From: Anatilimnocola floriformis | Lineage (GTDB): Bacteria; Planctomycetota; Planctomycetia; Pirellulales; Pirellulaceae | Reading direction: 5' to 3' | Assembly: GCF_024256385.1 (NCBI RefSeq) | Contig: NZ_JAMLFW010000001.1 | Span: 2,604,001 to 2,668,000, forward strand | Length of the DNA: 64,000 bases | The notes under the pieces: model-generated | Seen by the model: the letters and a program-made list of their open reading frames with translations, nothing else | Told to the model about the DNA's origin: nothing | The model's database searches: none | Made by a program: the position numbers and the translations under genes | Shown here: positions 7,504-34,900 of the stretch, in pieces | Layout of the letters: each line of letters begins with the position of its first letter | How positions within the stretch are numbered: position 1 is the stretch's first letter

Positions 7504-7569
7504 TAAATTCGCCAGAATTCAGCTGGTGACCGCTCATTGCCACCTCTGAATTCTGGCGAATTCAGCTAC
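7504..7569. repeat. GAATTC-type inverted repeat, copy 1
   Basis: Arms AATTCGCCAGAATTCAG and CTGAATTCTGGCGAATTCAG face each other across about 23 bases. The same arms recur at 18072-18146 and 21389-21460. This copy sits in the 248 bp gap between two divergent genes; the rest of that gap shows no gene. The left arm is slightly degraded at its outer end (TAAATTC instead of CTGAATTC). Three copies of one element, with spacers that differ, indicate a mobile or amplified palindromic repeat rather than a chance terminator. Confidence 0.85.
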
Positions 7570-12880: not shown

Positions 12881-13018
12881 CGTAGGCGAGTCACTCCGTG
12901 CCTCGCAACAGGCAAATTGGCGAGTTCAGGCGGTTGTTGATAATGACGAACTTCCGGGATGAACTTCCGCCTCCACTCGCCAAACACGTGTTGCGAGTCA
13001 CGGAGTGACTCGCCTACG
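12881..13018. repeat. Long inverted repeat between ygiQ and mtnC
   Basis: The left arm begins CGTAGGCGAGTCACTCCGTG (12881) and the right arm ends CACGGAGTGACTCGCCTACG (13018). Inside them, CTCGCAACA and TTGGCGAG on the left pair with TGTTGCGAG and CTCGCCAA on the right, so pairing extends about 38 bases with small interruptions. It lies between convergent genes and can serve as a two-way terminator. The TAG stop of mtnC (13014-13016) is inside the right arm. Confidence 0.8.
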
Positions 13019-13742
13019 AGATCTCTTCAAACGACTTAATCGCCGGATGTTTTTGCTCGTTGCTTTGCGGCGCGTTGCCGGGGCGGAGTAAGAGGCCGGT
13101 GCGCAGGCCGGCGGTTTTGGCGGCGTCTAGTTCAGCGGTAATGTCGCTGAGGAATAGGACGTCTGCCGGTGAGCAGCCGATGTCGGCGATGATGTTGGCG
13201 TAGCTTTGGCTTTCGCGCTTCGAGCCGATGGTGGTGTCGTAGTGGCCGGAGAGGAGCGGCAGCAAGTTGCCGGCGATGGTGTGGCCGAAGAAAAGGATCT
13301 GGGCTTGGACGCTGCCGGAGGAATAGATGCGGAGTTCGCGGCCGGCGTCTTTCCATTTGCGCAGGGATGGCGGCACGTCGTCGTAAACGTGGGCGAGGAG
13401 TTCGCCGGATTTAAAGCCGGATTCCCAGACCTGACCTTGCAGGTCTTTGAGGCCGGTGGCCTTGAGGTCGGAATCCATCTGGCGGATGACTTCGGCCGTC
13501 AGGCGTTGCTGGGCTGCGTCGGATTTCAGATCTTCGCAGCCGGTGAGTTCGAGCAGCGTCTTGCCGCCGTCGAGGGCGATTTGCTTGGCTGCGGCGAGGA
13601 CGTTGGGGTCGTTCGCATGGTGATCGAGAAACTCGGCGAGCTCACGGCGGACATAGGGGAACATCTCGTCGTAGACGAAACGGACCGACGAGGTGGTCCC
13701 TTCGATGTCGAGCAAAATCACGCGGCCGGTGAAGTCGATCAC
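13014..13742 (-). CDS. mtnC: Enolase-phosphatase E1, methionine salvage
   Basis: This 242-residue protein is a HAD-superfamily phosphatase of the MtnC family. The N-terminus LLDIEGTTSSVRFVYDEMFP holds the catalytic Asp motif DIEGTT specific to this family. GRELRIYSSGSVQAQILFFG is HAD motif II, and DVLFLSDITAELDAAKTAGL is motif IV. MtnC enolises and dephosphorylates 2,3-diketo-5-methylthiopentyl-1-phosphate to acireductone in the cytoplasm. Length is usual for the family. It is the last of three minus-strand salvage genes, separated from mtnD by a repeat-filled gap. Confidence 0.95.
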   Translation of the reverse strand: MIDFTGRVILLDIEGTTSSVRFVYDEMFPYVRRELAEFLDHHANDPNVLAAAKQIALDGGKTLLELTGCEDLKSDAAQQRLTAEVIRQMDSDLKATGLKDLQGQVWESGFKSGELLAHVYDDVPPSLRKWKDAGRELRIYSSGSVQAQILFFGHTIAGNLLPLLSGHYDTTIGSKRESQSYANIIADIGCSPADVLFLSDITAELDAAKTAGLRTGLLLRPGNAPQSNEQKHPAIKSFEEIS

Positions 13743-13857
13743 GGTGTTACCCCAAGGAAAGGTAGCCCGTAGCGTTAGCGAGGGCGTGATGTTGAGGGCG
13801 AGGGAAATTCGTCGTGAATTCGTATCGAGTTCGGCTAGTGCTTTTTCGGCAGTCTCG

Positions 13858-13990
13858 CTTAGCCACCAGCTTTAGCTGGTGGTGCAAGTTCAAAAAGTCG
13901 CCGGCTTTAGCCATTCCCTTGGCTCGCGAATCAATGGCTAAAGCCGGGAACTCTTGGGATCCAAACCACCAGCTAAAGCTGGTGGCTAAG
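13858..13990. repeat. Nested inverted repeat between mtnD and mtnC
   Basis: The outer arms are each palindromes: CCACCAGCTTTAGCTGGTGG near 13863 and CCACCAGCTAAAGCTGGTGG near 13966. They are flanked by CTTAGC and GCTAAG. An inner pair, GCCGGCTTTAGCCATT and AATGGCTAAAGCCGG, lies between them. The full element therefore folds as nested hairpins. It resembles REP-type extragenic palindromes. The 13757-13790 stretch just before it also carries GGTAGCCCG...GCGAGGG, a half copy of the repeat seen at 63215-63368. Confidence 0.8.
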
Positions 13991-14031
13991 GGAGCAGAAA
14001 TAATCTCTTAGGGATCGATCGATAGAAGAAG

Positions 14032-14610
14032 CTAAATCTTGACCGCACCGCCCATACCAACCGGATTCAAGTACGCCGGGCCCATGCAGAGCGCTTCGTA
14101 GCGAGCATTAACCGGATTATCGACGTACGCCGGGCTCCAGCCGCTCATGTCTTGGAACAGGCGGATGCAGCGAATGTTGCGGTCCTTGCAGAGGTCGAAC
14201 CAGTGCTGCGTGCCCTTCGGCACGTTGATCAGATCGCCCGACTCGACCTGCACGGCGAACACCGGGCCGTTTTCGGGATGGATATGAAACACGCCGCCGC
14301 CTTTGACGGTGAAGCGGACTTCGTCTTCGCTGTGGGTGTGTTCCTTGGCGAACTTCTGCAGCATCGCGTCGAGGTTCGGCGTTTCTGGTTTGACGTTGAT
14401 GACGTCGGCAGTGACGAAACCGCCGCGGGCCTTGAGGCGTTCGACCTCAGGAGCGTAGGCGGTGAGAATCTCGGCGTCGGTGGCGTCGCGATCGATCCGG
14501 CCATCGACATCCCACTTCTCATACCAAATGCCGAACGGCGCGAGGAACTCGCTGATCTGCTGCGGGTCGGTGATTTCGCGGTTCTCGTCCTGAATGCGGA
14601 TGCGGGCCAT
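14032..14610 (-). CDS. mtnD: Acireductone dioxygenase, methionine salvage
   Basis: The 192-residue protein is a cupin with the metal-binding pattern of acireductone dioxygenase. [20 protein letters not shown] supplies two His and the Glu, and [20 protein letters not shown] supplies the third His. [19 protein letters not shown] is also typical. It cleaves acireductone with O2 to formate and 4-methylthio-2-oxobutanoate (Fe form), or off-pathway with Ni. The ATG at 14610 was chosen over a TTG six bases upstream. It lies 39 bases after mtnB, so the two are co-transcribed. Confidence 0.95.
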
Positions 14611-14649
14611 TTTCAAATCGCCTATGTGAGGAGGAAGTATTTCGTTGGT

Positions 14650-15300
14650 TTAGCCGAGCATGCGTCGTCGATAGGTGCACTCGAGCAGGAACTCAATAAT
14701 CTCGATGTGCCGCCGGGCTTCGGCCAGATCGACACCCCAAGTGTACAGTCCGTGCTTCCGAATTAAATAGCCATGCGTGAGCGGTTTCGTGGGATCATTC
14801 AGCCGTTGGCGAACCTTCGCGGCCAGCTGTGAAATGTCCTGGGTGTTTTCGAAAATCTCCATCCGCCAGGTGTGCTCGTGCGTGGTCACGCCGGCGAGTC
14901 CCTTCAGCATTTCGTAGCCGCTGATCTCGACATAGCCCTGCTCGAAAAACAGGTCGGAGAGAATCGTCGAGTAAACCGAGTGCGTGTGCAAAATCGCGCC
15001 GACGCCCGGTTGCTCGGCGGCGACCGTGTGCAGCAGCGTCTCGGCCGAGGATTTTGGCTGACCGGGTGAGGTCGGCTTGCCTTGGTCATCGACAACGACG
15101 AAATCGCTGCGAGTCAGATGACCTTTATCTTTGCCGCTGGCGGTGAGGAGTAATTGCAGCGGATTGCGGTTCACCACCACGCTGTAGTTGCTGCTGGTCC
15201 CTAGCGAAAAACCGCGCTGCCACAGCCAATGGCCGGTTTCGCACAGGGCATCGATCTGCGACGTGTAAGGGGCGAGGGGCGAGGCGACGTCGGTTGTCAT
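14650..15300 (-). CDS. mtnB: Methylthioribulose-1-phosphate dehydratase
   Basis: From ATG 15300 the protein has 216 residues and belongs to the class II aldolase/adducin fold. GFSLGTSSNYSVVVNRNPLQ and LLTASGKDKGHLTRSDFVVV match MtnB. The zinc ligands are in GAILHTHSVYSTILSD (HTH) and in the later LIRKHGLYTWGVDLAEARRH. MtnB dehydrates 5-methylthioribulose-1-phosphate to the diketo compound used by MtnC. It heads the mtnB-mtnD-mtnC set. No mtnA, mtnK or mtnP is visible here, so the first steps must be encoded elsewhere. Confidence 0.94.
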   Translation of the reverse strand: MTTDVASPLAPYTSQIDALCETGHWLWQRGFSLGTSSNYSVVVNRNPLQLLLTASGKDKGHLTRSDFVVVDDQGKPTSPGQPKSSAETLLHTVAAEQPGVGAILHTHSVYSTILSDLFFEQGYVEISGYEMLKGLAGVTTHEHTWRMEIFENTQDISQLAAKVRQRLNDPTKPLTHGYLIRKHGLYTWGVDLAEARRHIEIIEFLLECTYRRRMLG

Positions 15301-15767
15301 GGCAAAAATCGAAAGGCGCCGAAGAGGAAAGTCGCATCGTAGCAAATCGCCCCGCTTCGGCACATCCGCTAGCAAACCTATAACCTTATAACAGGTTATG
15401 AAGTTGTTGAATGATTCCTAAGGCAAGCAGTGGCAACATGTTACCGCTGGTTTGTCTCATAACCCTATAACCTTTTATAACACGGCGGACTCCCGGCACG
15501 GAATAACTGCTTTCTACCACATTGCGACTGATTTCAATCACGTATTCACTCGGCGGAAAATTTCTCTGACCGGCAATCTCACCTTAATTTCGCCATTTTC
15601 AATCGCAAAGTCAGCTAGAATTGCCGAAATTACCAGTTCAAGCCACCGAAAACTTCCATATTCGGTGATAATCCGTCAATAGAATGCTTGCTTTCTGTCA
15701 CAGCATCCGACAAGATAGAGTGATCGGCAGTCTAGGCAGACTTTGACAGGCATCCGAAGGGAACGCA
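15301..15767. promoter_or_regulatory. Divergent control region of mtnB and the BMC operon
   Basis: This 467 bp gap has no gene-like frame and is much more AT-rich than its surroundings. It contains two clusters of ATAACC: 15375-15399 and 15458-15482. The second cluster has three ATAAC units in a row, CATAACCCTATAACC and TTTTATAAC. The section from about 15480 to 15740 has A/T runs typical of promoters but no single convincing -35/-10 pair. AAGGGA near 15756 precedes the GTG start of the DeoR gene. Confidence 0.55.
15380..15399. promoter_or_regulatory. Candidate operator palindrome ATAACCT-6-AGGTTAT
   Basis: The 20 bases ATAACCTTATAACAGGTTAT form a perfect 7 bp inverted repeat around a 6 bp spacer. 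Related ATAACC units recur about 80 bases further on. This is the sort of site a homodimeric repressor such as the adjacent DeoR-family protein could bind. It lies 80 bases upstream of mtnB and about 370 bases upstream of the DeoR gene, so it could also belong to mtnB. The link to either regulator is inference. Confidence 0.45.
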
Positions 15768-16577
15768 GTGATTAAGCAGGCGGTGGCGGACGAACGGCGA
15801 GGCCGATTGTCGGAGTTGATCCGACAACGCGGGTTCGCGTCGTTGCCCGAGCTCGTCACTCAGCTGGCCGTCTCCGAATCAACGGTCCGTCGCGACCTAG
15901 ATTATCTGGAAGAGTCGGGCGTTGCGCGACGAACGCATGGCGGTGTCTTTTACACCGGCCCTTCGCCGAAGCTGGCCCACTTCGATCATGGCCAGTCGTC
16001 GAACTGGGACAAGAAGCGGCGGATTGCGAACGCAGCTGCCCGCCTGATTGAAGACAACGATACGGTTCTGCTCGACGGTGGCAGCACGACTTATGAGCTC
16101 GCGCAGCTCCTCGTCGGTCGTCCGTTGCAGGTCGTGACCAACTCCCTTCCGGTGGCCAATTTGTTCAGCTCGAGCGATCTCACGAAACTCGTTCTCATCG
16201 GCGGCAAGGTCGATAGCCGGGCTGGCGTTACGATCGGGCCCTACGCAAATCAAATGCTCGAGACGCTGAATGTGCGTCGCGCCGTGCTGAGCGTGGCCGG
16301 CATCAATGAGCGAGGCGCTTACAACAGCGAATCGCTGCTCGTCGAAACCGAACGGGTGATGATGTCGCGTGCCGAGGAAGTGATTGTCGTCGCCGACAGC
16401 ACGAAGTTCGGCCGCACGAGCCTTGCCTTGATGTGCCCTCTGGCCGAGATCGACACGCTCGTCAGCGATCACGAGCTGTCGCCGGAATGGATCAAACGCC
16501 TGCAAGATGCCGGCGTGCAGGTCCGCCTCGCGGCTGAAGCGGGCGACTCCGAAATTCAAACTACAACCCATAGCTAA
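15768..16577 (+). CDS. DeoR-family transcription regulator of the BMC operon
   Basis: The start is a GTG at 15768 with AAGGGA about six bases upstream. The 269-residue protein has the DeoR N-terminal winged HTH ([20 protein letters not shown], then [19 protein letters not shown] and [11 protein letters not shown]). The C-terminal DeoRC sugar-phosphate-binding domain follows ([68 protein letters not shown]). DeoR repressors usually sense a phosphorylated sugar. Position as first gene of the BMC set, 19 bases before pduL, suggests it senses a deoxy-sugar phosphate and autoregulates the operon. Confidence 0.92.
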
Positions 16578-16596
16578 CCACCATCGAGTTTTTGAA

Positions 16597-17310
16597 ATGG
16601 CATCCTCTCCCGCACTCGACCGCAGCGTCGTCGAACAAATCGTTCGCCAGATTGTGCTTGGCAATGCTGCCGCGCCGGCGAACAAGCCAACCGAAAGCGG
16701 CGACAAGCCTGCCGAGCTGATGGTTAGCATTTCGGCCCGTCACTGCCACTTGAGCGATGCCGATGTCGAGACCCTCTTCGGACCGGGCGCCAAACTGACG
16801 CCGGAAAAAGATCTCTACCAAGATGGTTTCTTTGCGGCCGCCGAAACGGTGATGATCGTGGGCCCCCGCAAGCGGATGCTGCCGAATGTGCGCGTCCTCG
16901 GCCCGACGCGGCCTTACAGCCAGGTCGAGCTCGCCTTTACCGACAGCATTTCGCTGGGCATCGACGCGCCGGTTCGCCACAGCGGCAATATCAAGGGCAC
17001 GCCCGGTTGCGTCCTTGTCGGCCCCAAGGGGGTTGTCGAATTGCAGGAAGGCGTGATTCGCGCTGCTCGCCACGTTCACATGAGCAACAAAGACGCCGAA
17101 CGCTACGGCGTGAAGAACGGCGACTTCATGAAGCTGCGAATCGAATCGCCGCAATGCACCGTGGTGTTCGAAGACCTGCTCGTGCGGGCCGATGCCACCA
17201 GCAAGCTCGAAGTGCACATCGACACCGATGAAGGGAACGCCTGCTTCCTCGACGGCGCCACGAAGGTGGAACTGCAGAAGCAAGAAGGCGACTGCAAGTG
17301 CAAACACTAG
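16597..17310 (+). CDS. pduL: PduL-type phosphotransacylase of the BMC
   Basis: The 237-residue protein carries the PduL zinc motifs [19 protein letters not shown] and [19 protein letters not shown]. These lie in the two beta-barrel halves characteristic of this family. Residues 5-23 ([19 protein letters not shown]) form an amphipathic helix typical of an encapsulation peptide, joined by an Ala/Pro linker, so the enzyme should sit inside the shell. It exchanges CoA for phosphate on an acyl group, here probably lactyl-CoA or propionyl-CoA. The C-terminus ends in an unusual Cys/Lys tail, EGDCKCKH. The ATG at 16597 is 19 bases after the regulator. Confidence 0.94.
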
Positions 17311-17408: not shown

Positions 17409-17711
17409 ATGGCTAAGAATCTGGAAGCGCTCGGCATGATCGAGACGAAGGGCTTCATCGCCCTGCTCGAAGCGACCGATGCGATGTTGAAAGCCGCCAA
17501 CGTGACGTTGGTTGGTTGGGACAAGGTTGGTAGCGGTCTGGTTTCGGCTTTCGTCGTCGGCGATGTCGCCGCAGTGAAGAGCGCGACCGATGCGGGCGCT
17601 GCTGCCGCTGGCCGCGTGGGCGAAGTCGTCAGCGTACACGTCATTCCGCGTCCGCACGAAGACCTCAGCATCGTGCTGCCGCCGAGCATCAAGTACGCCA
17701 CCAAGGCCTAG
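17409..17711 (+). CDS. BMC-H shell protein 1
   Basis: This 100-residue protein is a single BMC domain (PF00936): [60 protein letters not shown] and [14 protein letters not shown]. The pore loop KVGSG is of the usual KxGSG kind. BMC-H proteins form the flat hexamers of the shell facets. It has about 12 extra residues after the domain compared with the second BMC-H. GGGAG lies just before the ATG, next to the hairpin upstream. Confidence 0.96.
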
Positions 17712-17788: not shown

Positions 17789-18055
17789 ATGAACACAGCA
17801 ATTGGTTTGATTGAAACGAAGGGCCTGATCGGCCTGGTCGAAGCGACCGACGCGATGGCGAAAGCCGCCAACGTGCAAATCGTCAAGCGGATCGGCATCG
17901 GTGGCGCTTATGTCACCACGATCGTTCAAGGCGATGTCGGCAGCGTGCGCGCTGCAGTCGAAGCGGGCGCTCAAGCCGCTCAGCAAGTCGGCGAACTCGT
18001 CGGCAGCCACATCATTCCTCGCCCCGCCGAAGGTTTGATCGAAGCGTTCGTTTAA
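17789..18055 (+). CDS. BMC-H shell protein 2
   Basis: This 88-residue protein is a minimal BMC domain: AIGLIETKGLIGLVEATDAM, KAANVQIVKRIGIGGAYVTT, GDVGSVRAAVEAGAQAAQQV and GSHIIPRPAEGLIEAF. Its pore loop reads GIGGAY, unlike KVGSG in the neighbouring paralogue, so the two hexamers probably pass different metabolites. Planctomycete-type BMC loci typically carry exactly two BMC-H genes, which fits. It is framed by palindromic repeats on both sides. Confidence 0.96.
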   Translation: MNTAIGLIETKGLIGLVEATDAMAKAANVQIVKRIGIGGAYVTTIVQGDVGSVRAAVEAGAQAAQQVGELVGSHIIPRPAEGLIEAFV

Positions 18056-18071: not shown

Positions 18072-18146
18072 TGTAACTGAATTCGCCAGAATTCAGACGG
18101 ATGCGCAGTACGACGTCGCTCACTGAATTCTGTCGAATTCAGCTAC
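18072..18146. repeat. GAATTC-type inverted repeat, copy 2
   Basis: The left arm CTGAATTCGCCAGAATTCAG (18077-18096) and right arm CTGAATTCTGTCGAATTCAG (18123-18142) flank a 26-base spacer, with GTA and CTAC-like ends. It is the same element as copies 1 and 3. Here it separates the second BMC-H gene from the kinase gene in the 115 bp gap. Confidence 0.88.
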
Positions 18147-18170: not shown

Positions 18171-19358
18171 ATGAAAATCCTAGTCGCCAATCTCGGCTCG
18201 ACGAGCTTCAAGTATCGGCTATACGACATGGCCGACGAACGGCAGCTCGCGCGCGGTGGGGTCGAACGCATCGGTTCGGCTGAAAGCCCGTGCTTTGTCG
18301 AGATTGCAGGCAAGAAGCAGGAACTGAAGGTTCCCGTTCCGGATCACGCCGTCGCGGTGCGTCAGTGCCTCGCGCAGCTCACCGATCCGCAGAACGGTTG
18401 CCTGCAGAGCGAACAGGAAGTGGCTGCCATCGGTTTCAAAGCCGTGCATGGTGGTCGCGTAAGTGGCGTGCAGCGGATCACTCCCGATGTGCTCGCCGCC
18501 ATGGAAGAGATGAACCTGCTCGCTCCGGCGCACAATCCTCCTTACATTCGCGCGATGCGACTGCTGGGGGAAAAGCTGCCGCAGATTCCGCTGGTGGCTG
18601 CGTTTGAAACGGGTTTTCACAACACGATTGCCGACAAGCTTCGCTACTATCCCGCGCCGCATGAATGGGCCGAGAAGTGGCAGATCAAACGCTGGGGTTT
18701 TCACGGCGCGAGTCATCGCTACATCGCCCAGCGGACGAGCCAACTGTTGGAACGATACGATCTGCGGATCATTTCGTGCCATCTCGGCGGCTCGAACAGT
18801 CTGTGTGCGATTCGGGGTCAACAAAGCATCTCGACCACGATGGGCATGAGTCCGCAAACCGGTTTGCCGCAGAACAACCGTGTCGGCGATTTCGATCCGT
18901 TTGCGATTCCACTCATCATGGAGCGCGAAGGAAAGAGCCTGCAGGAAGTTCTGAATACACTCGCCGAAAAAAGCGGCTTGCTCGGACTCAGCGGCATTAG
19001 TGGTGACGTGCGCGATCTCGATGAAGCCGCCGCCAATGGCAACGGCCGGGCTCGGCTGGCGCTCGATGTGTTCATCGCCGAAATTCGGCGGCACCTCGGC
19101 GGCATGCTGGTGGAACTCGGTGGCGCCGACGCGATCGTGTTCACCGGCGGCATCGGCGAAAACGGCGTGAACATTCGCGCGGGAGTTTGCGAAAACCTGC
19201 AAGGCCTCGGCATCGAACTCGATGCAGGGCTCAACAGCTCAAAGGGCAACTCCGAGCGCTGCGTGAGCAAGGCCGGCAGCCCAACGCAGATCTGGATCAT
19301 TCCGACGAACGAGGAACTGATCGTGGCCCGTCAAACCAAACATGCAATTGAAGGGTAG
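18171..19358 (+). CDS. Acetate-kinase-family enzyme of the BMC operon
   Basis: This 395-residue protein is of acetate-kinase length and fold: ILVANLGSTSFKYRLYDM, GFKAVHGGRVSGVQRITPDV, AFETGFHNTIADKLRYYP and RWGFHGASHRYIAQRTSQLL. The C-terminal GADAIVFTGGIGENGVNIRA also fits. It would make ATP from the acyl-phosphate released by PduL. Several active-site motifs differ from ordinary acetate kinases: HLGGSNSLCAI instead of the usual HLGNGASxxAI, and LPQNNRVGDFDP instead of MGTRSGDxDP. This points to a different acyl phosphate, for example lactyl- or propionyl-phosphate. AAGGA precedes the ATG. The next gene follows after eight bases. Confidence 0.9.
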   Translation: MKILVANLGSTSFKYRLYDMADERQLARGGVERIGSAESPCFVEIAGKKQELKVPVPDHAVAVRQCLAQLTDPQNGCLQSEQEVAAIGFKAVHGGRVSGVQRITPDVLAAMEEMNLLAPAHNPPYIRAMRLLGEKLPQIPLVAAFETGFHNTIADKLRYYPAPHEWAEKWQIKRWGFHGASHRYIAQRTSQLLERYDLRIISCHLGGSNSLCAIRGQQSISTTMGMSPQTGLPQNNRVGDFDPFAIPLIMEREGKSLQEVLNTLAEKSGLLGLSGISGDVRDLDEAAANGNGRARLALDVFIAEIRRHLGGMLVELGGADAIVFTGGIGENGVNIRAGVCENLQGLGIELDAGLNSSKGNSERCVSKAGSPTQIWIIPTNEELIVARQTKHAIEG

Positions 19359-19366
19359 CGCACCAC

Positions 19367-19675
19367 ATGTTCGTCGCCAAAGTCACCGGCAGTCTGGTTT
19401 CGACGCAAAAAGTCGATTCGATGAAGGGCTTTAAACTCTTGATCGTCGAACCCTATCGCATCGAAGCCAAGGATCGGAAGTCGATCGTCACGACAGGCCG
19501 GACGTTTGTCGCGGTCGATACGCTCGGCGCGGGGATCGGCGATTTTGTGATCCTCACGCAAGGCTCTTCGGCGCGATTGACACCCGAAACCAAGACGCTC
19601 CCCATCGACGCCGTCGTCGTGGGCATCGTCGACAAAGTGCAAGTGGATGAGGGAACGGTCTACTCGCGGGATTAA
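19367..19675 (+). CDS. BMC-P (EutN/CcmL) vertex protein 1
   Basis: This 102-residue protein is an EutN/CcmL domain (PF03319), which forms the pentamers that cap shell vertices. Diagnostic segments are MFVAKVTGSLVSTQKVDSMK, FKLLIVEPYRIE, VAVDTLGAGIGDFVILTQGS and IDAVVVGIVDKVQVDEGTVY. The GAGxGDxV turn is the family hallmark. It lies eight bases after the kinase gene and is the first of three BMC-P genes in this operon. Confidence 0.95.
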   Translation: MFVAKVTGSLVSTQKVDSMKGFKLLIVEPYRIEAKDRKSIVTTGRTFVAVDTLGAGIGDFVILTQGSSARLTPETKTLPIDAVVVGIVDKVQVDEGTVYSRD

Positions 19676-19696: not shown

Positions 19697-19899
19697 CCAC
19701 CGAGCTTGCTCGGTGGTGAAATGATTATGCACCAGTTCAACCACCTCGCGAAGCCAGCCCCCACCGACCTTGTGTCGGTGGAGCAAATGATTTTCGCGGC
19801 GGTTCAATCATCCGCTCCACCGACCAAGGCCGGCGGGGGCGAGACGAGTAGCGATCAGGACTAGTGCAGAATCAGGGCTCCACCGAGCAATCTCGGTGG
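19697..19899. repeat. Four CCACCGA hairpins in one gap
   Basis: The 263 bp gap between the first BMC-P gene and the aldehyde dehydrogenase holds four related small hairpins. They are CCACCGAGCTTGCTCGGTGG at 19697, CCACCGAC...GTCGGTGG at 19761, CCACCGACCAAGGCCGGCGG near 19818 and CCACCGAG...CTCGGTGG at 19880. The outer copies pair as CGAG, the inner ones as CGAC. Nothing else gene-like is visible in the gap. The set could also fold as a larger structure, since copies 2 and 3 face each other. Confidence 0.8.
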
Positions 19900-19938
19900 G
19901 GGCCAGAGAACAAGAAACTCCAACTAACGATTAACCAT

Positions 19939-21384
19939 ATGCAAATCAACGAAGCTCTCATCCGCAGTGTCGTCGCTCAGGTCCTCTCCGAAGTGGCCCG
20001 GGGTGGCGCACACGTCAGCAGCGGTCCCAAGTTCGCCGGCCGGCATGGCATCTTCACTTGCGTGAACGAAGCCGTCGCTGCTGCTCGCGATGCGTTCGAG
20101 CAATTGAGCGAGCGGACCATGGAAGACCGCAAGCGGATCATCAGCCATATTCGCCGCATCTCGATCGACAACTGCGTCGAGCTCGGCACGATGGAAATGA
20201 ACGAGACCAAGGTTGGCCGTCTCAATCACAAGATCGAAAAGCTGAAGACCCTCGGCGAAAAAACGCCGGGCGTGGAATTCATGCGAAGCGAAGTATTCAG
20301 CGGCGACCACGGCTTGGCCGTGATCGAACACGCGCCATTCGGCGTGATCGGCGCGATCACTCCGGTTACGCACTCGCTGCCGACCATCACCGGCAACGCA
20401 GTGAGCATGATCGCTTCGGGCAACTCGGTCGTGGTGAATCCGCACCCGAGCGGCAAGAAGGTGGCTGCCGAAGGTGTGCGTCGTTTCAACGAAGCCATCT
20501 ACAAAGACCTCGGCATCGACAACCTGATTTGCGTGATCACCGAACCGACGCTGGAAACGGCCAATCAACTGTTCGGTCATCGCAATGTCAATCTGATCTG
20601 CGTCACCGGCGGCCCTGCTGTCGGTCGCGCAGCGCTTCGCAGCGGCAAGCGGGCCGTGGTCGCTGGCCCAGGCAATCCGCCGGTCGTCGTCGACGAAACG
20701 GCGGACCTCGACAACGCCGCCCGCTGCATCATTCAAGGTGCGGCTTACGACAACAACCTGCTCTGCATCGCCGAGAAGGAAGTGTTTGTCGTCTCAAGCG
20801 TCTTCGACAAGATGATGGACGCCATGGATCGCGCCGGCGCGACGCGGCTGAATGCTCGCGAAGTCGACGAGTTCACCAAGAAGGCGATTGTTCAAGTCGG
20901 CGAAGGGGAACACAAGCACGACGCCCCTTCGAAGGAATTCCTCGGCCAGGATGCCAAAGTCCTCGCCCGTGCGATCGGCAAATCGATTCCGGAAAAGAGC
21001 GACCTGCTGTTCGGCGAAGCCGACGAAAGCAATCCGTTTGTTCCGGTCGAACAGATGATGCCCTTCGTGCCGTTCGTCCGCGTGAAGAATGTCGACGAAG
21101 CCATCCAAAAGGCTCAGCACTACGAACACGGTTTCCGGCACACGAGCATCATTCACAGCCAGAACGTAAAGAACATGACGAAGATGGGCCGCATCCTCGA
21201 CACGACGCTGTTCGTGAAGAACGGCCCGTGCATGGCCGCCCTCGGTCTCGGCGGCGAAGGCTACTTGTCGTTCTCGATCGCTGGCCCGACCGGCGAAGGT
21301 GTGACGACGCCGTTGACCTTCACCCGCGAACGCCGCTGCTCGCTCATCGAAGATCTGTGCGTCCTCGGCAAACCCAAGTCGTAA
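19939..21384 (+). CDS. CoA-acylating aldehyde dehydrogenase of the BMC
   Basis: I start at the ATG at 19939, so the 481-residue protein opens with QINEALIRSVVAQVLSEVAR, an amphipathic encapsulation-type helix. Residues 30 on are of the EutE/PduP family: VIEHAPFGVIGAITPVTHSL, GNSVVVNPHPSGKKVAAEGV, LICVTGGPAVGRAALRSGKR and AGPGNPPVVVDETADLDNAA. The expected catalytic Cys is residue 276 in DNNLLCIAEKEVFV. It converts an aldehyde, CoA and NAD+ to acyl-CoA; with the aldolase here the likely aldehyde is lactaldehyde. It lies after the four-hairpin gap and before another palindrome. Confidence 0.95.
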   Translation: MQINEALIRSVVAQVLSEVARGGAHVSSGPKFAGRHGIFTCVNEAVAAARDAFEQLSERTMEDRKRIISHIRRISIDNCVELGTMEMNETKVGRLNHKIEKLKTLGEKTPGVEFMRSEVFSGDHGLAVIEHAPFGVIGAITPVTHSLPTITGNAVSMIASGNSVVVNPHPSGKKVAAEGVRRFNEAIYKDLGIDNLICVITEPTLETANQLFGHRNVNLICVTGGPAVGRAALRSGKRAVVAGPGNPPVVVDETADLDNAARCIIQGAAYDNNLLCIAEKEVFVVSSVFDKMMDAMDRAGATRLNAREVDEFTKKAIVQVGEGEHKHDAPSKEFLGQDAKVLARAIGKSIPEKSDLLFGEADESNPFVPVEQMMPFVPFVRVKNVDEAIQKAQHYEHGFRHTSIIHSQNVKNMTKMGRILDTTLFVKNGPCMAALGLGGEGYLSFSIAGPTGEGVTTPLTFTRERRCSLIEDLCVLGKPKS

Positions 21385-21388
21385 ATCT

Positions 21389-21460
21389 GTAGCTGAATTC
21401 GCCAGAATTCAGACTCCTGATTTTTTCGAAACCCCTCTGAATTCTGGCGAATTCAGCTAC
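21389..21460. repeat. GAATTC-type inverted repeat, copy 3
   Basis: GTAGCTGAATTCGCCAGAAT starts the left arm at 21389; the right arm ends GAATTCTGGCGAATTCAGCT then AC at 21460. The arms are perfectly complementary over 24 bases, the best of the three copies. The spacer of 24 bases includes a run of Ts. It fills the 89 bp gap between the aldehyde dehydrogenase and the second BMC-P gene. Confidence 0.9.
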
Positions 21461-21473
21461 TCAAAAGACAACC

Positions 21474-21734
21474 ATGCAACTCGGCCTCGTCATCGGCACC
21501 GCCATCGCTACCGCGCGGCATCCGTCCTTCAAAGGACAAAAGATGCTCGTCGTGCAGCCGTTGATGGCCGATGGCAAAACTCCCGACGCCGATCCGGTGA
21601 TTGCCGCCGATGTCGTGGGCGCCGGCCGAGGCGAACTGGTGATGATCACGAGCGACGGCAAGTACGTTCGCGAAATTACCGGCGACGAATCGACCCCCAT
21701 CCGCTACTCGATCGTCGGCATTGCAGACAACTAA
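21474..21734 (+). CDS. BMC-P (EutN/CcmL) vertex protein 2
   Basis: This 86-residue EutN/CcmL protein shows QLGLVIGTAIATARHPSFKG, KMLVVQPLMADG, DVVGAGRGELVMITSDGKYV and YSIVGIADN. It is the shortest and most canonical of the three BMC-P proteins. It starts 13 bases after the third GAATTC repeat and is followed after six bases by the small unknown gene, so this group (BMC-P, unknown, BMC-P, aldolase) is tightly packed. Confidence 0.95.
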   Translation: MQLGLVIGTAIATARHPSFKGQKMLVVQPLMADGKTPDADPVIAADVVGAGRGELVMITSDGKYVREITGDESTPIRYSIVGIADN

Positions 21735-21740
21735 CAAACC

Positions 21741-22037
21741 ATGAACCTGACTCCCGCTGATATCGATCGAATTGTCGCCGAAGTGGTGCGCCGCGTGCGC
21801 GCCCTCGTCGCGACTTCGACACCAGCGCCGATTCAGCAAACCGAATCCACCAGCAGTTTGAACTTGAACGACAAAGTCATCACGCTCGCGACGATCAAGG
21901 GCCGGCTCCAGGGAATCACCACGGTGGTTGTCTCGGAGCGGGCCATCGTCACGCACGCGGTGAGGGACGAACTGCGCGACAAGAAGATCAGCTGGCAACG
22001 CGTTGCGTCCAACACGGCCACCAAGGCGAGGAGCTAA
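21741..22037 (+). CDS. Small BMC-operon protein with encapsulation-like helix
   Basis: This 98-residue protein sits between two BMC-P genes with gaps of six and three bases, so it is surely part of the operon. Residues 4-23 (TPADIDRIVAEVVRRVRALV) form an amphipathic helix like the targeting helices of PduL, the aldehyde dehydrogenase and the aldolase. A Thr/Ser/Pro linker follows, then LNDKVITLATIKGRLQGITT and VVVSERAIVTHAVRDELRDK. The last part recalls the 'IITPxAxExAxxxGI' stretch I remember from EutQ-like BMC proteins. No catalytic motif is visible. It may be a scaffold or cargo adaptor rather than an enzyme. Confidence 0.88.
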   Translation: MNLTPADIDRIVAEVVRRVRALVATSTPAPIQQTESTSSLNLNDKVITLATIKGRLQGITTVVVSERAIVTHAVRDELRDKKISWQRVASNTATKARS

Positions 22038-22040
22038 CCA

Positions 22041-22337
22041 ATGCGAATCGCCAAAGTGCTCGGCACGGTCACGATGAACAGTCAGCATCCCACGATGCAA
22101 GGCGCACGGCTGCGGCTCATCGTGCCGCTGTCGCTCGCCGAACTGCGCGATGGCGTGGCTCCGCAAGCCGACGAAATTGTCGCTTGGGACGACCTCGGCG
22201 CCGGCATCGGCGATCTGGTCGCCATCAGCGAAGGGGCCGAAGCGGCTCAGCCGTTCCGACCCAATTACAAACCAATCGACGTTTACATTTCCGCCATTCT
22301 CGATCAACTCGACCTCGATCAAAACCTCCTTCGTTAA
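22041..22337 (+). CDS. BMC-P (EutN/CcmL) vertex protein 3
   Basis: This 98-residue EutN/CcmL protein shows MRIAKVLGTVTMNSQHPTMQ, RLRLIVPLSLAELRDGVAPQ, EIVAWDDLGAGIGDLVAISE and VYISAILDQLDLD. It has an insertion after the second strand (SLAELRDGVAPQAD) compared with BMC-P 2. Three distinct BMC-P genes with no BMC-T gene is the composition known for planctomycete BMCs. It begins three bases after the small unknown gene. Confidence 0.95.
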   Translation: MRIAKVLGTVTMNSQHPTMQGARLRLIVPLSLAELRDGVAPQADEIVAWDDLGAGIGDLVAISEGAEAAQPFRPNYKPIDVYISAILDQLDLDQNLLR

Positions 22338-22349
22338 AGGCATCAACCC

Positions 22350-23231
22350 ATGGTCAATCATCACAAAATCAAGCAGGACATCTGCGAGATCGGCCGCCGC
22401 TTGTACAACAAGGGCTTCGCCGCCGCCAACGACGGCAACATCACGGTGCGCGTCGGCGAGAACGAAGTTCTCTGCACCCCTACGATGCACAGCAAGGGCT
22501 TTCTCAAGCCCGACGATATCAGCCTCGTCGACATGACCGGCAAGCAACTGAGCGGCCGCAAAAAGCGTTCGAGCGAAGCGTTGCTGCACCTCGAAATCTA
22601 TAAGCAACGGCCCGACGTGAAGAGCGTCGTGCACTGCCACCCGCCGCACGCCACGGCCTTCGCGATCGCTCGCGAACCGATTCCGCAGTGCGTGCTCCCC
22701 GAAGTCGAAGTGTTCCTCGGCGATGTTCCGATCACCACCTACGAAACTCCCGGCGGCCAAGCCTTTGCCGATACGGTGCTGCCGTTCGTGAGCAAGACAA
22801 ACATCATCATCCTCGCCAACCACGGCACGGTGAGCTACGGCACGGATGTGGAACAAGCTTATTGGTGGACGGAAATTCTCGACGCGTATTGCCGCATGCT
22901 GATGCTCGCCAAGAGCCTCGGCAAAGTGAACTACTTCGATGAGAAGAAGGAACGCGAACTGCTCGACCTGAAGCAGAAATGGGGCTGGGCCGATCCGCGC
23001 AACACCGAGGAATACAAGAACTGTGACGTGTGCGCGAACGACATCTTCCGCGACAGCTGGAAGCAATCGGGCGTGGAACGGCGTGCGTTCGACGCTCCCC
23101 CCGCCATGGGCCCTGCCGTGGCTGCCGCGGTGAAAAAAGAAGTCGCCGCCGCGCCCGCCGGCGGTGATCAAGAAGCGCTGATCAAGATGATCACCGAACG
23201 AGTGATGGAAGCTTTGGCAACGCAGAAGTAA
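22350..23231 (+). CDS. Class II sugar-phosphate aldolase of the BMC
   Basis: The 293-residue protein is a class II aldolase/adducin family member: KQDICEIGRRLYNKGFAAAN, DGNITVRVGENEVLCTPTMH, KRSSEALLHLEIYKQRPDVK (Glu of SSE expected catalytic), SVVHCHPPHATAFAIA (two Zn His) and IIILANHGTVSYGTDVEQAY (third Zn His). Beyond the usual fold (about 215 residues) it has an Ala/Pro-rich linker and a C-terminal amphipathic helix, DQEALIKMITERVMEALATQ, a probable encapsulation peptide. It should split fuculose- or rhamnulose-1-phosphate into DHAP and lactaldehyde inside the shell. A CxxC (NCDVC) lies near residue 225. Confidence 0.93.
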   Translation: MVNHHKIKQDICEIGRRLYNKGFAAANDGNITVRVGENEVLCTPTMHSKGFLKPDDISLVDMTGKQLSGRKKRSSEALLHLEIYKQRPDVKSVVHCHPPHATAFAIAREPIPQCVLPEVEVFLGDVPITTYETPGGQAFADTVLPFVSKTNIIILANHGTVSYGTDVEQAYWWTEILDAYCRMLMLAKSLGKVNYFDEKKERELLDLKQKWGWADPRNTEEYKNCDVCANDIFRDSWKQSGVERRAFDAPPAMGPAVAAAVKKEVAAAPAGGDQEALIKMITERVMEALATQK

Positions 23232-23333
23232 GAACGCAGAATGCAGAATGAGGCAGGCAAATGCCTTTCGTTCTGCATTCTGACTTCTACGTTCTGCATT
23301 CAATCTGCAATCTGACATCTGCAATCTGCAATA
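23232..23333. repeat. GCAGAAT / CTGCAATCTG repeat-filled spacer
   Basis: The 111 bp gap between the aldolase and dehydrogenase genes is almost wholly repetitive. AACGCAGAATGCAGAATGA near 23233 faces TTCTGCATTC twice further on, forming an inverted repeat. Then CAATCTGCAATCTGACATCT and GCAATCTGCAATA follow as direct repeats. The same CTGCAATCTG words occur in the gap at 31887-31970. Confidence 0.75.
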
Positions 23334-23342
23334 AGTGATCCC

Positions 23343-24290
23343 ATGAAAGTCAGCATCATCGGCGGCGGCGGTTTGGTCGGTTCCAGCGCAGGCTTTGCCC
23401 TGCAATGCGGCGGCGTGGTGAGCGAGATCGCGCTCCTCGACGTCAACGCCGACTTGGCCAGCGGCCAGGCACTCGACATGCTCCACGGCGCTCCGAGCGT
23501 GGCCGATCAGGTCATCACCTCGGGCGGTTACGAGCACATTCCGAGCTCCGACATCATCTGCATCACGGCTGGTTTGCGGCGCAAGCCCGATGAAAGCCGG
23601 CTCGATCTCATCAATCGCAACACCGACCTCTTCCTCGGCATTCTCGGCGAAGTGACGAAGGCCGGCGTGAAGAAAGACGCGATCGTCCTCGTCGTGTCGA
23701 ACCCCGTCGACATTCTCACCTACGTCGCCGCCGATCGCCTCGGTCTGCCACTGAGCCAGGTCATCGGCCTCGGCACGCAGCTCGATACGATCCGCTTCCG
23801 CAGCCTCATCGCTCAGCAAGTGAAAGCCGCGCCGACGCAAGTTCAGGCCCTCATCCTCGGCGAACACGGCGACAGCATGGTGCCGATTTGGTCGAGCGCT
23901 TGCATCGCCAATCTGCCGCTCGAAAAATTCCCGGGCTGGAATACCAAGCTCGCCGATGAACTCTTCACGCGGACCAAAGGTTCGGGCGCAGAAGTCATCA
24001 AGAAGAAGACCGGCGCTGGTTTTGCCGTCGGCATTGCGATTCGCGACGTGATTCACTCGATCGTTCTCGATCAACGCCGCATCCTGCCGGTGAGCAGCGT
24101 GCAAGAAGGTTGCTACGACATTCGCGACGTCGCACTGAGCGTGCCGACCGTCGTCGGCCGCAAGGGCGTGGTCGCTCGCCACCAGATCGAACTCTGGCCG
24201 AAGGAAGTTCAGCTCCTCCGCAAGAGCGGCCTCGTGCTGCGGCAAACGCTGGAACAAGTCCTCAGCCGCATCGGCCGCGGGAAGAAGTAA
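23343..24290 (+). CDS. Malate/lactate dehydrogenase family, last BMC-operon gene
   Basis: This 315-residue protein has the LDH/MDH fold: KVSIIGGGGLVGSSAGFALQ (NAD site), IALLDVNADLASGQALDMLH, LVVSNPVDILTYVAADRLGL, GLGTQLDTIRFRSLIA (Asp and Arg of the active site) and ILGEHGDSMVPIWS (catalytic His). The substrate loop reads TAGLRRKPDESRLDL: Arg at the position usually numbered 102, which specifies malate/oxaloacetate, whereas lactate enzymes have Gln. It has no obvious targeting helix. In the operon it may recycle NADH made by the aldehyde dehydrogenase. Its 3' end overlaps the convergent hydrolase gene by 29 bases. Confidence 0.92.
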   Translation: MKVSIIGGGGLVGSSAGFALQCGGVVSEIALLDVNADLASGQALDMLHGAPSVADQVITSGGYEHIPSSDIICITAGLRRKPDESRLDLINRNTDLFLGILGEVTKAGVKKDAIVLVVSNPVDILTYVAADRLGLPLSQVIGLGTQLDTIRFRSLIAQQVKAAPTQVQALILGEHGDSMVPIWSSACIANLPLEKFPGWNTKLADELFTRTKGSGAEVIKKKTGAGFAVGIAIRDVIHSIVLDQRRILPVSSVQEGCYDIRDVALSVPTVVGRKGVVARHQIELWPKEVQLLRKSGLVLRQTLEQVLSRIGRGKK

Positions 24291-24930
24291 GCACTTGTTG
24301 CAAATACTCATTCACGCTTTCCGCGTGAGTGAGTGTCAATAAATGCCCGGCCTCGGGAATTACGCAATCAGCTCCGGAGATCACCGCCGGGAATGTTGAG
24401 TCTAAAGCCCCGTGGATTTGGTGAAGCTGGCAATTTGGAAACTCTGGTTGCCATTTCAGCAACACTTGAAGAGCCCAAATGCGAAAGCTTTGATCACGCG
24501 GCGAAAGTTGGTGAAAATTCTTGACTGCTGAAGTTTCGATCGATGTCAGGAAATGTGCAGAGCGTGCAAGCTGAACGATAGATCTGCTGGACGCTAAAGC
24601 AGACACCGGCCGCAGTAAGCGAAGCATGGCCGGCAACGCTTCAATGCTACGGCAACTAGCAATGAGCACGCAGGCCTTCGCTTGCAGGTGCTTCGCGACT
24701 TCGAGCGAGACAATCCCACCGAAGGATGCGCCGCCAATAATACAAGGCACGCCCGGATCGATCTTCGCCGCCAATCGCTGCGCGTAGTGGGTTAGCGGCT
24801 CTTCATCGCTCAGCGGCTGCTCCCACTTCGGCACGTCGAGGTCTGGAAACGCTTTCAGCTGCGGCGCGAAGACGCGCGGATCACCGTTCATACCGGGCAA
24901 GAGAATCAGCGGCAGGTCTGTTTCGCTCAT
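24262..24930 (-). CDS. Alpha/beta hydrolase
   Basis: The 222-residue protein is a small alpha/beta hydrolase. LPLILLPGMNGDPRVFAPQL is the oxyanion region. VPCIIGGASFGGIVSLEVAK holds the nucleophile Ser in GASFGG. HQIHGALDSTFP supplies the acid and IPEAGHLLTL the His. The lid region (residues about 95-150) is Leu/Arg-rich. The substrate is unknown. Its 3' end overlaps the BMC-operon dehydrogenase by 29 bases, and it is divergent from the CoA-disulfide reductase gene. Confidence 0.85.
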   Translation of the reverse strand: MSETDLPLILLPGMNGDPRVFAPQLKAFPDLDVPKWEQPLSDEEPLTHYAQRLAAKIDPGVPCIIGGASFGGIVSLEVAKHLQAKACVLIASCRSIEALPAMLRLLRPVSALASSRSIVQLARSAHFLTSIETSAVKNFHQLSPRDQSFRIWALQVLLKWQPEFPNCQLHQIHGALDSTFPAVISGADCVIPEAGHLLTLTHAESVNEYLQQVLTSSRGRCG

Positions 24931-31886: not shown

Positions 31887-31970
31887 ATTGCAGATGTCAG
31901 ATCTCAGATTGCAGATTGAATACAAGACAATTTTCTCAATCTGCAATCTGCCATATACGATCTGCAATCA
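31887..31970. repeat. CTGCAATCTG inverted repeat
   Basis: CAGATTGCAGATTGA near 31904 pairs with TCAATCTGCAATCTG near 31936. ATTGCAGATGTCAGATCTCA at the left and GATCTGCAATCAATC at the right extend the symmetry. The words match those of the repeat at 23232-23333. It fills the gap between the coiled-coil gene and MoxR; the last bases overlap the 3' end of the coiled-coil gene, where its stop codon lies. Confidence 0.75.
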
Positions 31971-34900
31971 ATCGACACTTTCAAAATAACGGCGAAGGCG
32001 TTCTTCGTAGCCGCGCGGGGCCTTGCCGCGGGCTTTGGCTTGGATGGCGTTTTGCAGGGAGGGCGGGAGCTTGGCGAACCAAGGTTCCTTCGCAAACTTC
32101 TGGGCCTTGGCGTCGGAGTCTTGATCGGCTTTTTCGCCGCGGCTGTCGCCTTGCTCGGTCGCTTCGTTTTTCAGCTCGCCTTTTTCCATGTCTGGGTTGT
32201 TCTTGGCGTCGCCACCCATGGGTGAACCACCCTTGGTCGCTTGTTCGCCGGGTTGGCCGGGCATCGGCTGACCCTCGCCAGGTTGACCCGGCATGGGTTG
32301 TCCCTGACCGGGCATCGGCGGGCCCTGGCCTGGCATGGGTTGCCCTTGGCCTGGCATGGGTTGCCCTTGGCCTGGTTGTCCCGGCATGGGCTGGCCTTGG
32401 CCTGGTTGGCCAGGCATCGGTTGCCCCTGCCCCGGTTCGCCCATGGCGAGTTGATTGAGAATTGCTTCGGCAGCCGCTTGCAGTGCGGCTTCGGCCTGGG
32501 CGACTGCATCGGCGCCGGCGATTTGCTGGGCAGTTGCTTCCGCGGAATTGGGTACGAGGCCGGTGCCGAGATCGGAAGGTTTGACCGCGGCGGCCTGACC
32601 CATTGGTTGACCAGCGGGTTTGCCCATGGGCTTACCGGCGGCAGCTTGACCCATTGGTTTGCCGGTCGCAGGTTGTCCCATCGGCGTCTGGCCGGGTTGA
32701 GCTTCGCCAGGCTGGCCCATCGGTTGGCCGGCTGCTTCGCCCATGGCGACTTCAGCGCCAGCCATCGGTTCGGCCAAACGCGAGGCGGCTTCGAGACCTT
32801 CGCGGACTCCTTCGTTGGCGACTTCGTCCTGACCGGAGATTTCGGCAGCGCCGACGCCGGTGGCCTTTTGCGCTTCGGCAAAGTCTTGCGTGGCTCGCTG
32901 GAGAGCTTCGGCAGCGGCGAGCTTCTTGGCAGACGGTTGCTTGCCCATCGGCTTACCGGCTTGACCCATTGGTTTGCCAGCCTCACCCATCGGCTTGCCT
33001 GCTTCTCCTGCCATGGGTTTGCCGGCTTGACCCATTGGTTCACCGGTTTCGCCGGCCATGGGCGCATCGCCTTGGGCGAGTTGCTTGGCTGCTTCGCCGA
33101 TGGCGTCGCGGGCGGCCTGTTGATCTTTGGCGAGTTCGGCGATGGCTTCGGCGAGGTCCCGATCGCGACGGAGTTGTTGTTCGCGAGCTGCGAGATTGGC
33201 GGCGGCGCGATCGAGACGTTGTTGAACTTCCTTGCGAGCTTCGGCGGCTTTGGCTGGATCGGGTTTGCCCGCGTCAGGCTTACCAGCTTCACCGGCCATG
33301 GGTTTGCCAGCTTCACCCGCTTCGGCGGCAGCTTGCTTGGCGGCCTTGGCTGCTTGTTGCAGAGCAGCTTGAGCGCCCGGATCCACTTCGCCGGCCTTGT
33401 CGGCGAGTTCGCCGGCGGCCTTCCCTTCTTCGGCCAGACCTTCGGCTTCTTTCTTGCCGAGTTCCTTCAAAGCTTCGCCGATCTTTTCACCGGCTTTGGC
33501 GAGAGCTTCGCCAGTCTTCTTTTGAGCTTCGGCAGCACCTTCGGTGTTGCCCTTGTCGAGTTGTTCTTTGGCGGCCTGGGCTTCGGTGGCTGCCTTGGCG
33601 GCGGCTTTGCCGGCTTCTTGAGCGGCCTTCGCGGCAGGATCGCCCATGTCGCCGCCGGCTTCGGCAGCGGCTTTGTCGGCGAGAGCTTCGGCTGCTTCGG
33701 CTTTTTCGCCGGCTGCTTTTTGAGCCATGGCATCGGGCTTGCCAGCCGGTTGTGCTTCAGCGGCGGCCGCTTGCATTTCGGCAGCGGCGGCTGCTTTGGC
33801 AATGGCTTCGCGAGCTTGTTCGCGGGCTGCTTCGGCCTTAGCAGGATCGCCGCCGAGAGTTTCCTTGGCGGCGGTGGCGGCGGCCTTGGCTGCTTCTTTC
33901 AAGGCTTCGGCGACGTCGCCCTTGGCCGACTTCGCGGCTTCGGCGGCTTTTTCGGCGGCCTCTTGTTGTTCACCGGCGGCTTCGAGCGGTGTGTTGGCCT
34001 TGCCCTGGGCGAGATCGTTCGCTGCCTTGTCGGCCTGGTTTTGTTCCTTCTTTACTTCCGCGACTTTTTCGGCCTGAGTCTTCGCTTCGGCGGCGGCAGC
34101 TTTGCCTTCGGCCTTGGCTTGCTCAGTTTGAGCGGCGCGAATTTGATCTTCGGCCTTCTGCAGATTGGCGATGGCTTCGGCCTTCGACGGCATTGGTTTG
34201 GCTGCCGCTTGTTCAACGGCTTCACGGGCCGCTTCGGCCTTATCGAGTTGTTCGCCAGCGATCTGTGCGAGCTTCTCGGCTGCCTCTCCTGCTTCCTTGC
34301 GAAGTTCAGCGGCGGCTTGCGTCAATTTCTCGGCAGCTTTGTCGGCCGCCTTCGCAGCGTCCTTGGCCGCTTGCTTTGCTTCGGGCTTGGCGGGCTGACC
34401 GGCCATTGGTTTGGCTTCGGCGATTTTCTTGGTCGCTTCTTCGACGGGCTTCTTCGCTTCCGCGACTTGCTTCGAGGCTTCGGGCGCGGTGTTCTTTACA
34501 CCTTCGGCGATTTTCTCGGCGACCTGTTTGACATCGGCTTGCTTGGCGGCGAGCGCTTCGGCTTTTTCTGGCACGAGCCCCTCTGGCTTTTCCGCGGCGG
34601 CCGCGGCTTCTTTGGCGACTTCTTTTTCGGCGGCAGCGGCTCGTTCGAGCGCCTCGGCAGCGCGGGCCAGTTCGCCGACCTTGACGGCTTGCTCTTGACG
34701 CATGGCGTCGGCCAATTGCTGATCGACTTCGGCCTTGGCTTGCGCGATGGCATCCTTGGCGGCTTCGGCAGCTTCTTTGCGAGCGGCGGCCTTCTCGGGG
34801 GTGACGTCCTTATCGGCAACGGCGGCAGCGACGACGGCCTCTTCGGCGGACTTCACCTTGTTTTCGATGGCGGCGTTGAGTTCGGTTTTGTCGTCGGCTT

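Follow-up and report, generated by a model that had tools for sequence, protein, structure and literature searches.

A 98-residue planctomycete protein is a probable minimal shell-cargo linker of a PVM-type metabolosome

We identify in the window (the whole stretch of Anatilimnocola floriformis DNA that was analysed, 64,000 nucleotides) a gene for a protein of 98 residues, at 21741..22037 on the forward strand (ATG to TAA), that by analogy with EutQ probably serves a PVM-type metabolosome as a minimal shell-cargo linker. The protein consists of three parts: a predicted amphipathic helix of the encapsulation-peptide (EP) type (residues 4-24, 21750..21812), a Thr/Ser/Pro/Gln linker (residues 25-40, 21813..21860) and a domain of the EutQ-N/PduM-C type (residues 41-88, 21861..22004), all encoded on the forward strand.

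The gene and its PVM-type locus

The gene lies in a complete PVM-type (fucose/rhamnose-type) BMC locus, whose members were assigned with Pfam and follow one another on the forward strand. PduL phosphotransacylase (16507..17310, likely start about 16597; PF06130, E 1e-72) comes first, followed by two BMC-H shell proteins (17409..17711 and 17789..18055; PF00936, E 2.2e-27 and 4.4e-26), an acetate kinase family protein (18171..19358; PF00871, E 4.8e-107), a BMC-P vertex protein (19367..19675; PF03319, E 7.4e-29) and a CoA-acylating aldehyde dehydrogenase (AldDH, 19864..21384; PF00171; NF011927, E 2.7e-186). The 98-residue ORF is then flanked by the second and third BMC-P genes (21474..21734, E 2.8e-24, and 22041..22337, E 7.9e-20), ahead of the class II aldolase, the signature enzyme of the PVM type (22350..23231; PF00596, E 4.3e-49). 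A lactate/malate dehydrogenase-like protein, recognized by reading its sequence, is encoded next (23343..24290, forward strand) and adjoins the aldolase in most compared regions. The job of PVM loci is the degradation of fucose and rhamnose via lactaldehyde (PMC4207490; PMC8857213).

The earlier note, made from the sequence of the window, had placed the ORF between two vertex-protein genes at a distance of a few bases; both neighbours indeed match PF03319, and the gaps are 6 bp upstream and 3 bp downstream. We reject a chance ORF at 21741-22037, since homologs occur in 47/60 relatives in a single-protein search and in 240/297 Planctomycetia genomes in a profile search, usually at the same position of the locus. 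Among 19 regions compared, the position is the same in 18; in the remaining one the gene stands on the other side of the BMC-P gene. An antisense ORF of 952 aa that covers the gene (21453-24311) is disregarded as a mechanical by-product of high GC.

The PVM locus of this genome has no BMC-T. A stand-alone BMC-T of 211 aa is found elsewhere in the genome, outside the window and far from the PVM locus (L240:7242-7877); no other BMC genes are among the ORFs listed around it, and it is possibly a satellite shell part.

An N-terminal helix of the encapsulation-peptide type

The AlphaFold2 model of the 98-residue protein consists of a helix at residues 5-24, a disordered linker (pLDDT 54-62) whose length varies in the alignment, and a compact domain at about 39-93. 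The helix at 4-23 and the Thr/Ser/Pro linker that had been read from the letters alone are thus reproduced, the helix with a shift of one residue. The hydrophobic moment of the helix is 0.74, a value reached by 1% of shuffles; it is weak evidence for an EP, because it is significant for this protein only and not for the peptides of known type in the same locus.

An EP profile was also derived, for which homologs from other genomes were the sole source of helices. Among 543 ORFs of the window, it ranks the 98-residue protein first (5.9e-8), the N-terminus of AldDH second (0.08) and that of PduL fourth, in agreement with the targeting helix proposed in the earlier note. In the whole genome, the same protein is again first (8.3e-6) and AldDH second. 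Applied to foreign BMC loci, the profile matches the N-termini of PduM, PduB and EutC; the targeting signals of PduM and PduB have been shown experimentally (PMC12108088), and the N-terminal 20 residues of EutC bind EutQ (PMC12487888). As for the enzymes of the window locus, the N-terminus of AldDH is EP-like by this profile if translation starts at ATG 19939 (MQINEALIRSVVAQVLSEV), that of PduL is so by a weak match, and the C-terminus of the aldolase (QEALIKMITERVMEALATQK) is EP-like by pattern only, its hydrophobic moment being not significant. Judged from sequence and model, the protein has the predicted terminal amphipathic helix and flexible linker that characterize EPs, like the cargo of its own locus.

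Enzyme identity is rejected in view of the absence of any Pfam or NCBIfam enzyme match, the length of 98 aa and the lack of a significant match for the predicted fold, in line with the earlier suggestion that there is no enzyme fold; shell-protein identity is rejected since neither PF00936 nor PF03319 matches. In fact, the protein has no Pfam match at all, the EutQ cupin (PF06249) included. Of the NCBIfam models, TIGR02536 aligns with it through its last 43 positions only, at 12.4 bits against a cut-off of 152.6 bits. The PduM models (PF15953, NF011957 and TIGR04493) give no match above their curated cut-offs, and the best homologs among the matches listed reach 18.7 bits against the PduM cut-off of 179 bits. 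No sequence relatives were found in the PDB, either for the protein or for the profile of its domain, and the search for viral relatives of the protein found none. The best VIA matches of its model are to the N-terminal domain of Cas1, with Z up to 6.8 over 56 residues, which is weak and below the trusted level.

A small domain shared with EutQ, EutT and PduM

The C-terminal domain of about 45 residues, delimited with a motif alignment of 43 sequences, is absent from Pfam. It contains the stretch SERAIVTHAVRDELRDK (residues 65-81), and the earlier note had likened a short motif of this protein to EutQ-like BMC proteins. The resemblance is confirmed: in hhalign, the planctomycete domain aligns with EutQ-N (about residues 4-45) at 95.0% probability and E 3.8e-8. 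It also aligns with EutT-N (96.7%, E 3e-10), PduM-C (92.8%, E 4e-7), TIGR02536-C (96.0%, E 5e-9) and flavoprotein-C (98.1%, E 1e-13). As a control, 201 tiles were taken from 46 families encoded in the same loci; scores above 18 are confined to the true domain tiles (60.9, 52.4 and 36.4), and the best of the others is 17.3. A scan of 29 homologs against the library of 18,950 NCBIfam models points the same way, the most frequently matched models being TIGR02536 (14 members) and PduM (11 members).

To follow the domain outside planctomycetes, 80 diverse BMC loci, mostly from Firmicutes, were sampled with a BMC-H probe, a hand-typed consensus. In these loci the planctomycete domain profile matches the C-terminus of proteins of the TIGR02536/flavoprotein type and of PduM, the N-terminus of EutT and EutQ, and in addition a PduL fusion and small stand-alone proteins. 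Iterated, the search collects 58 proteins in 43/83 loci, with E-values for the E. coli proteins of 4.6e-9 (PduM), 2.3e-9 (EutQ) and 2.8e-10 (EutT) that are circular in part; the profile-profile comparison does not depend on this iteration. A single-step HMM search against the ORFs of three E. coli stretches gives a borderline value for EutT (E 0.016) and none of significance for EutQ (E 1.8) or PduM (E 2.2). The relation is therefore easily missed, which is the reason for the use of profile-profile comparison and iteration. In the reciprocal direction, a profile of non-planctomycete sequences only has the present family as its top match in 8/8 planctomycete genomes; in the genome of the window, the 98-residue protein is its only match (E 0.019). 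Altogether, these sequence comparisons identify the domain as homologous to the H1/H2-type region of EutQ.

The domain is found in several further contexts. A EutQ homolog of locus L138 carries it at residues 19-60 and a helix matched by the EP profile at 81-100, that is, the two parts of the 98-residue protein in the opposite order. A PduL phosphotransacylase of a Clostridiales locus has the domain fused at its C-terminus (residues 296-337; L103:5193-6215), and a EutT-PduL fusion of 473 aa has it at the N-terminus (L133:13030-14448). Small ORFs of 94-131 aa that are mostly domain occur in four foreign BMC loci (L124:15571-15900, L132:9620-9976, L129:12482-12874 and L138:14066-14347); these are candidates for further minimal forms, with no targeting helix detected in them.

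Comparison with known linkers

The N-terminal region of Salmonella EutQ (residues 1-99) is a shell-cargo linker according to genetics, imaging, calorimetry and NMR (PMC12487888; 2025). Within it, H1/H2 are required for shell attachment (deletion 9-41) and residues 62-99 (H3/H4) bind the EPs of EutC and EutE, while the cupin that forms the enzymatic C-terminus is dispensable for BMC assembly (PMC12487888). EutQ 1-99 and the 98-residue protein have in common the small domain (about 4-45 in EutQ, corresponding to H1/H2), a linker with an amphipathic helix, and a body that can be dispensed with. The order of the parts is reversed, however: domain, linker, helices and body in EutQ, against helix, linker and domain in the 98-residue protein. 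EutQ further differs in its cupin body, through which it dimerises, and in binding at the EutM/EutL interface, whereas the window locus is devoid of BMC-T.

PduM, arranged as helix, body and domain, resembles the 98-residue protein in its N-terminal targeting helix (MQRIVDEVVFRLK in E. coli PduM, DRIVAEVVRRVRA in the 98-residue protein) and its C-terminal domain; with about 163 aa, it differs by a middle region that the shorter protein lacks. Residues 1-23 of PduM are a functional core-targeting signal, sufficient for a reporter, and without this signal a weak association with the microcompartment remains (PMC12108088). Loss of PduM partly separates core from shell (PMC12108088, PMC9132943). 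BMC proteins of the TIGR02536/flavoprotein type (PF02441) also carry the domain at the C-terminus, in L112, L117, L108 and L081 together with an N-terminal EP helix, and differ in their flavoprotein-type body, of which the 98-residue protein has none.

Because EutQ and PduM share these parts and EutQ H1/H2 attaches to the shell, we propose that the 98-residue protein bridges core and shell. Its N-terminal helix would pack with the EPs of PduL, AldDH and the aldolase and thereby become part of the enzyme core, its C-terminal domain of about 45 residues would dock on the shell from inside, and the flexible linker would let one molecule reach both. The scaffold or adaptor role that the earlier note had put forward as one explanation is now the best one, since the matching region of EutQ bridges shell and cargo experimentally (PMC12487888); the contacts of the 98-residue protein itself with shell and core are those expected by analogy with EutQ.

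An alternative is that the protein organizes the core only, its domain binding cargo or other carriers of the domain, so that it would condense the core without touching the shell. This would suit the presence of the domain on lumen enzymes as well (EutT and the PduL fusion), and the behaviour of PduM in a pduB mutant: when PduB 1-37 is missing, PduM is with the cargo and not with shell aggregates (PMC9132943), for which reason the domain need not bind the shell in every carrier. We nevertheless consider this reading unlikely, as EutQ without H3/H4 stayed with the shell (PMC12487888), which places shell binding in H1/H2, the region homologous to the domain.

The same set of carriers might also be taken to mean that the domain is an enzyme-binding tag instead of a shell dock, the protein acting on an encapsulated enzyme as regulator or chaperone: the bodies that the domain accompanies (EutT, the EutQ cupin, PduL and those of flavoprotein type) have no activity in common. 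Yet no client enzyme is common to the loci concerned either, and EutQ still assembles the BMC after removal of its enzymatic C-terminus (PMC12487888), so that we regard such a role as very improbable.

A short form that lacks an RpiB-like domain

Most homologs are longer than the window protein. With 200-270 aa, these planctomycete orthologs share with it the position in the locus, the N-terminal helix, the linker and the small domain, and differ from it by a C-terminal domain of about 130 aa, which could not be seen from the window alone. This extra domain is RpiB-like: PF02502 matches it at 7.8e-7 in one member and below threshold in nine more, and RpiB structures are recovered with the AlphaFold2 model of one long homolog (pLDDT 89.8), both by Foldseek (E 1e-6) and by VIA (Z 17-19). 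The column of the catalytic Cys of RpiB is occupied by T, S or A in 36/36 long relatives, and none of the 36 has a His at the catalytic His positions checked. Isomerase activity of the long relatives is therefore unlikely, and we reject an RpiB enzyme on account of the Cys column. The RpiB fold (PF02502) is absent from the 98-residue protein.

In the short forms, to which the window protein, that of the congener and some from several further genera belong, the chain stops 2-11 residues beyond the small domain. Family f1 contains them alongside long forms, and family f7 has them as well. On taxonomic grounds, this suggests that the RpiB-like domain was lost at least twice; parsimony on the gene tree counts 5 changes (4-5 in bootstrap replicates), of which well-supported branches force only 1, so the tree alone demands no more than one loss. 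We take the 98-residue protein to be a shortened form of the longer protein, whose catalytically degenerate RpiB-like domain would be dispensable for bridging, as the cupin is in EutQ.

The loss could alternatively mark a decaying remnant, a gene on its way out whose helix is an ordinary encapsulation signal. Evolution is indeed fast: the identity to the congener is 61%, compared with 90-96% for the neighbours, a nearly invariant Pro of the domain (VTP) is replaced by His (VTH) in the window protein (21945-21956) and kept in the congener, and the whole gene is missing from some lineages. The differences from the congener are nonetheless distributed over the codon positions as 0.36/0.16/0.54, and dN/dS is about 0.29 against about 0.06 for neighbouring genes, which indicates purifying selection, weaker than on the neighbours. 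Moreover, the short form is common to one genus and, separately, to another family, with the same end just after the domain, and no trace of the lost domain lies between stop and next gene; with a distance of 3 bp, no remnant is possible in the window. On balance, decay appears improbable.

Restriction to BMC genomes

Strong matches of the domain in whole genomes are found almost only in BMC genes. In 30 foreign whole genomes, 30 of the loci matched by the domain profile were fetched, and in 27 of them a marker of the shell or of a BMC enzyme is at most 1.5 kb from the match. The other three comprise two weak matches (E 0.3 and 0.46) and one (E 0.0014) from a genome that has its BMC-P genes elsewhere. 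In the sample of the phylum, some homologs are not close to shell genes, and those of their genomes that were checked encode BMC-P elsewhere. In two genomes (L216 in G075 and L218 in G078), the homolog is kept while three BMC-P genes are scattered, with no shell gene within about 9 kb. PF03319 co-occurs with the family in 34/34 checked carrier genomes, compared with 8/20 genomes without a profile match (Fisher p 3.7e-7); the other 12/20 have no BMC-P.

In G044 and G040, two BMC-P genes abut without the gene between them, G040 being negative in the single-protein search only. The gene is thus not always needed, as some lineages with a full BMC-P set are without it; absence calls are imperfect, since four genomes negative in the single-protein search carry divergent homologs.

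A possible general docking module

The distribution of the domain raises the possibility, which we advance tentatively, that it is a general shell-docking module of metabolosomes, placed on whichever protein serves as linker. The carriers would be EutQ in Gram-negative Eut loci, TIGR02536 proteins, EutT or stand-alone proteins in Gram-positive Eut loci (where EutQ has no such domain), PduM in Pdu loci, flavoproteins in other types and the present family in PVM loci. The window protein would then be a natural minimal linker, reduced to one core-binding helix and one shell-binding domain.

Shell-cargo linkers as such are already known. What is new is the spread of the domain over BMC proteins thought unrelated, its location on a neighbouring protein in 6/7 sampled loci where EutQ is short and domain-less, and, for PVM loci, a carrier of their own, which has RpiB-like relatives and occurs in the window in a naturally minimal form. 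We found no earlier description in the main texts of the open-access papers searched; an earlier mention, for example in the first PVM description (Erbilgin 2014), is possible. According to one study, no homology beyond Pdu BMCs is known for PduM (PMC12108088), and another took the missing N-terminal helices of Gram-positive EutQ to point to assembly by different mechanisms (PMC12487888). Should the shared domain dock on shells, a single answer would cover both, the same module on another carrier. The attachment of the enzyme core to the shell is a central question of BMC assembly, and for the construction and loading of synthetic shells, no part would be simpler than a natural linker of 98 residues.

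Other features of the window

An intergenic palindromic repeat, TAGCTGAATTCGCCAGAATTC, is present between AldDH and BMC-P (21389-21461) and between the second BMC-H and acetate kinase (18074-18145), with a single arm at 7548-7568 (5 matches against 0 expected). The copy between AldDH and BMC-P forms a near-perfect hairpin in prediction (-43 kcal/mol, z -11.7), and the core of the repeat recurs at the AldDH/BMC-P junction of the congener; it may be a REP-like element or an mRNA stabiliser within the BMC operon. Beside the BMC locus, on the reverse strand, lies a trio of methionine-salvage-like genes (13014-15375), read as an enolase-phosphatase, an acireductone dioxygenase and an MtnB-like dehydratase. 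Further along, an ORF of 1412 aa (31968-36206, reverse strand) is extremely rich in Ala, Glu, Lys and Gln and ends in a tail of Gly-Gln-Pro-Met repeats.
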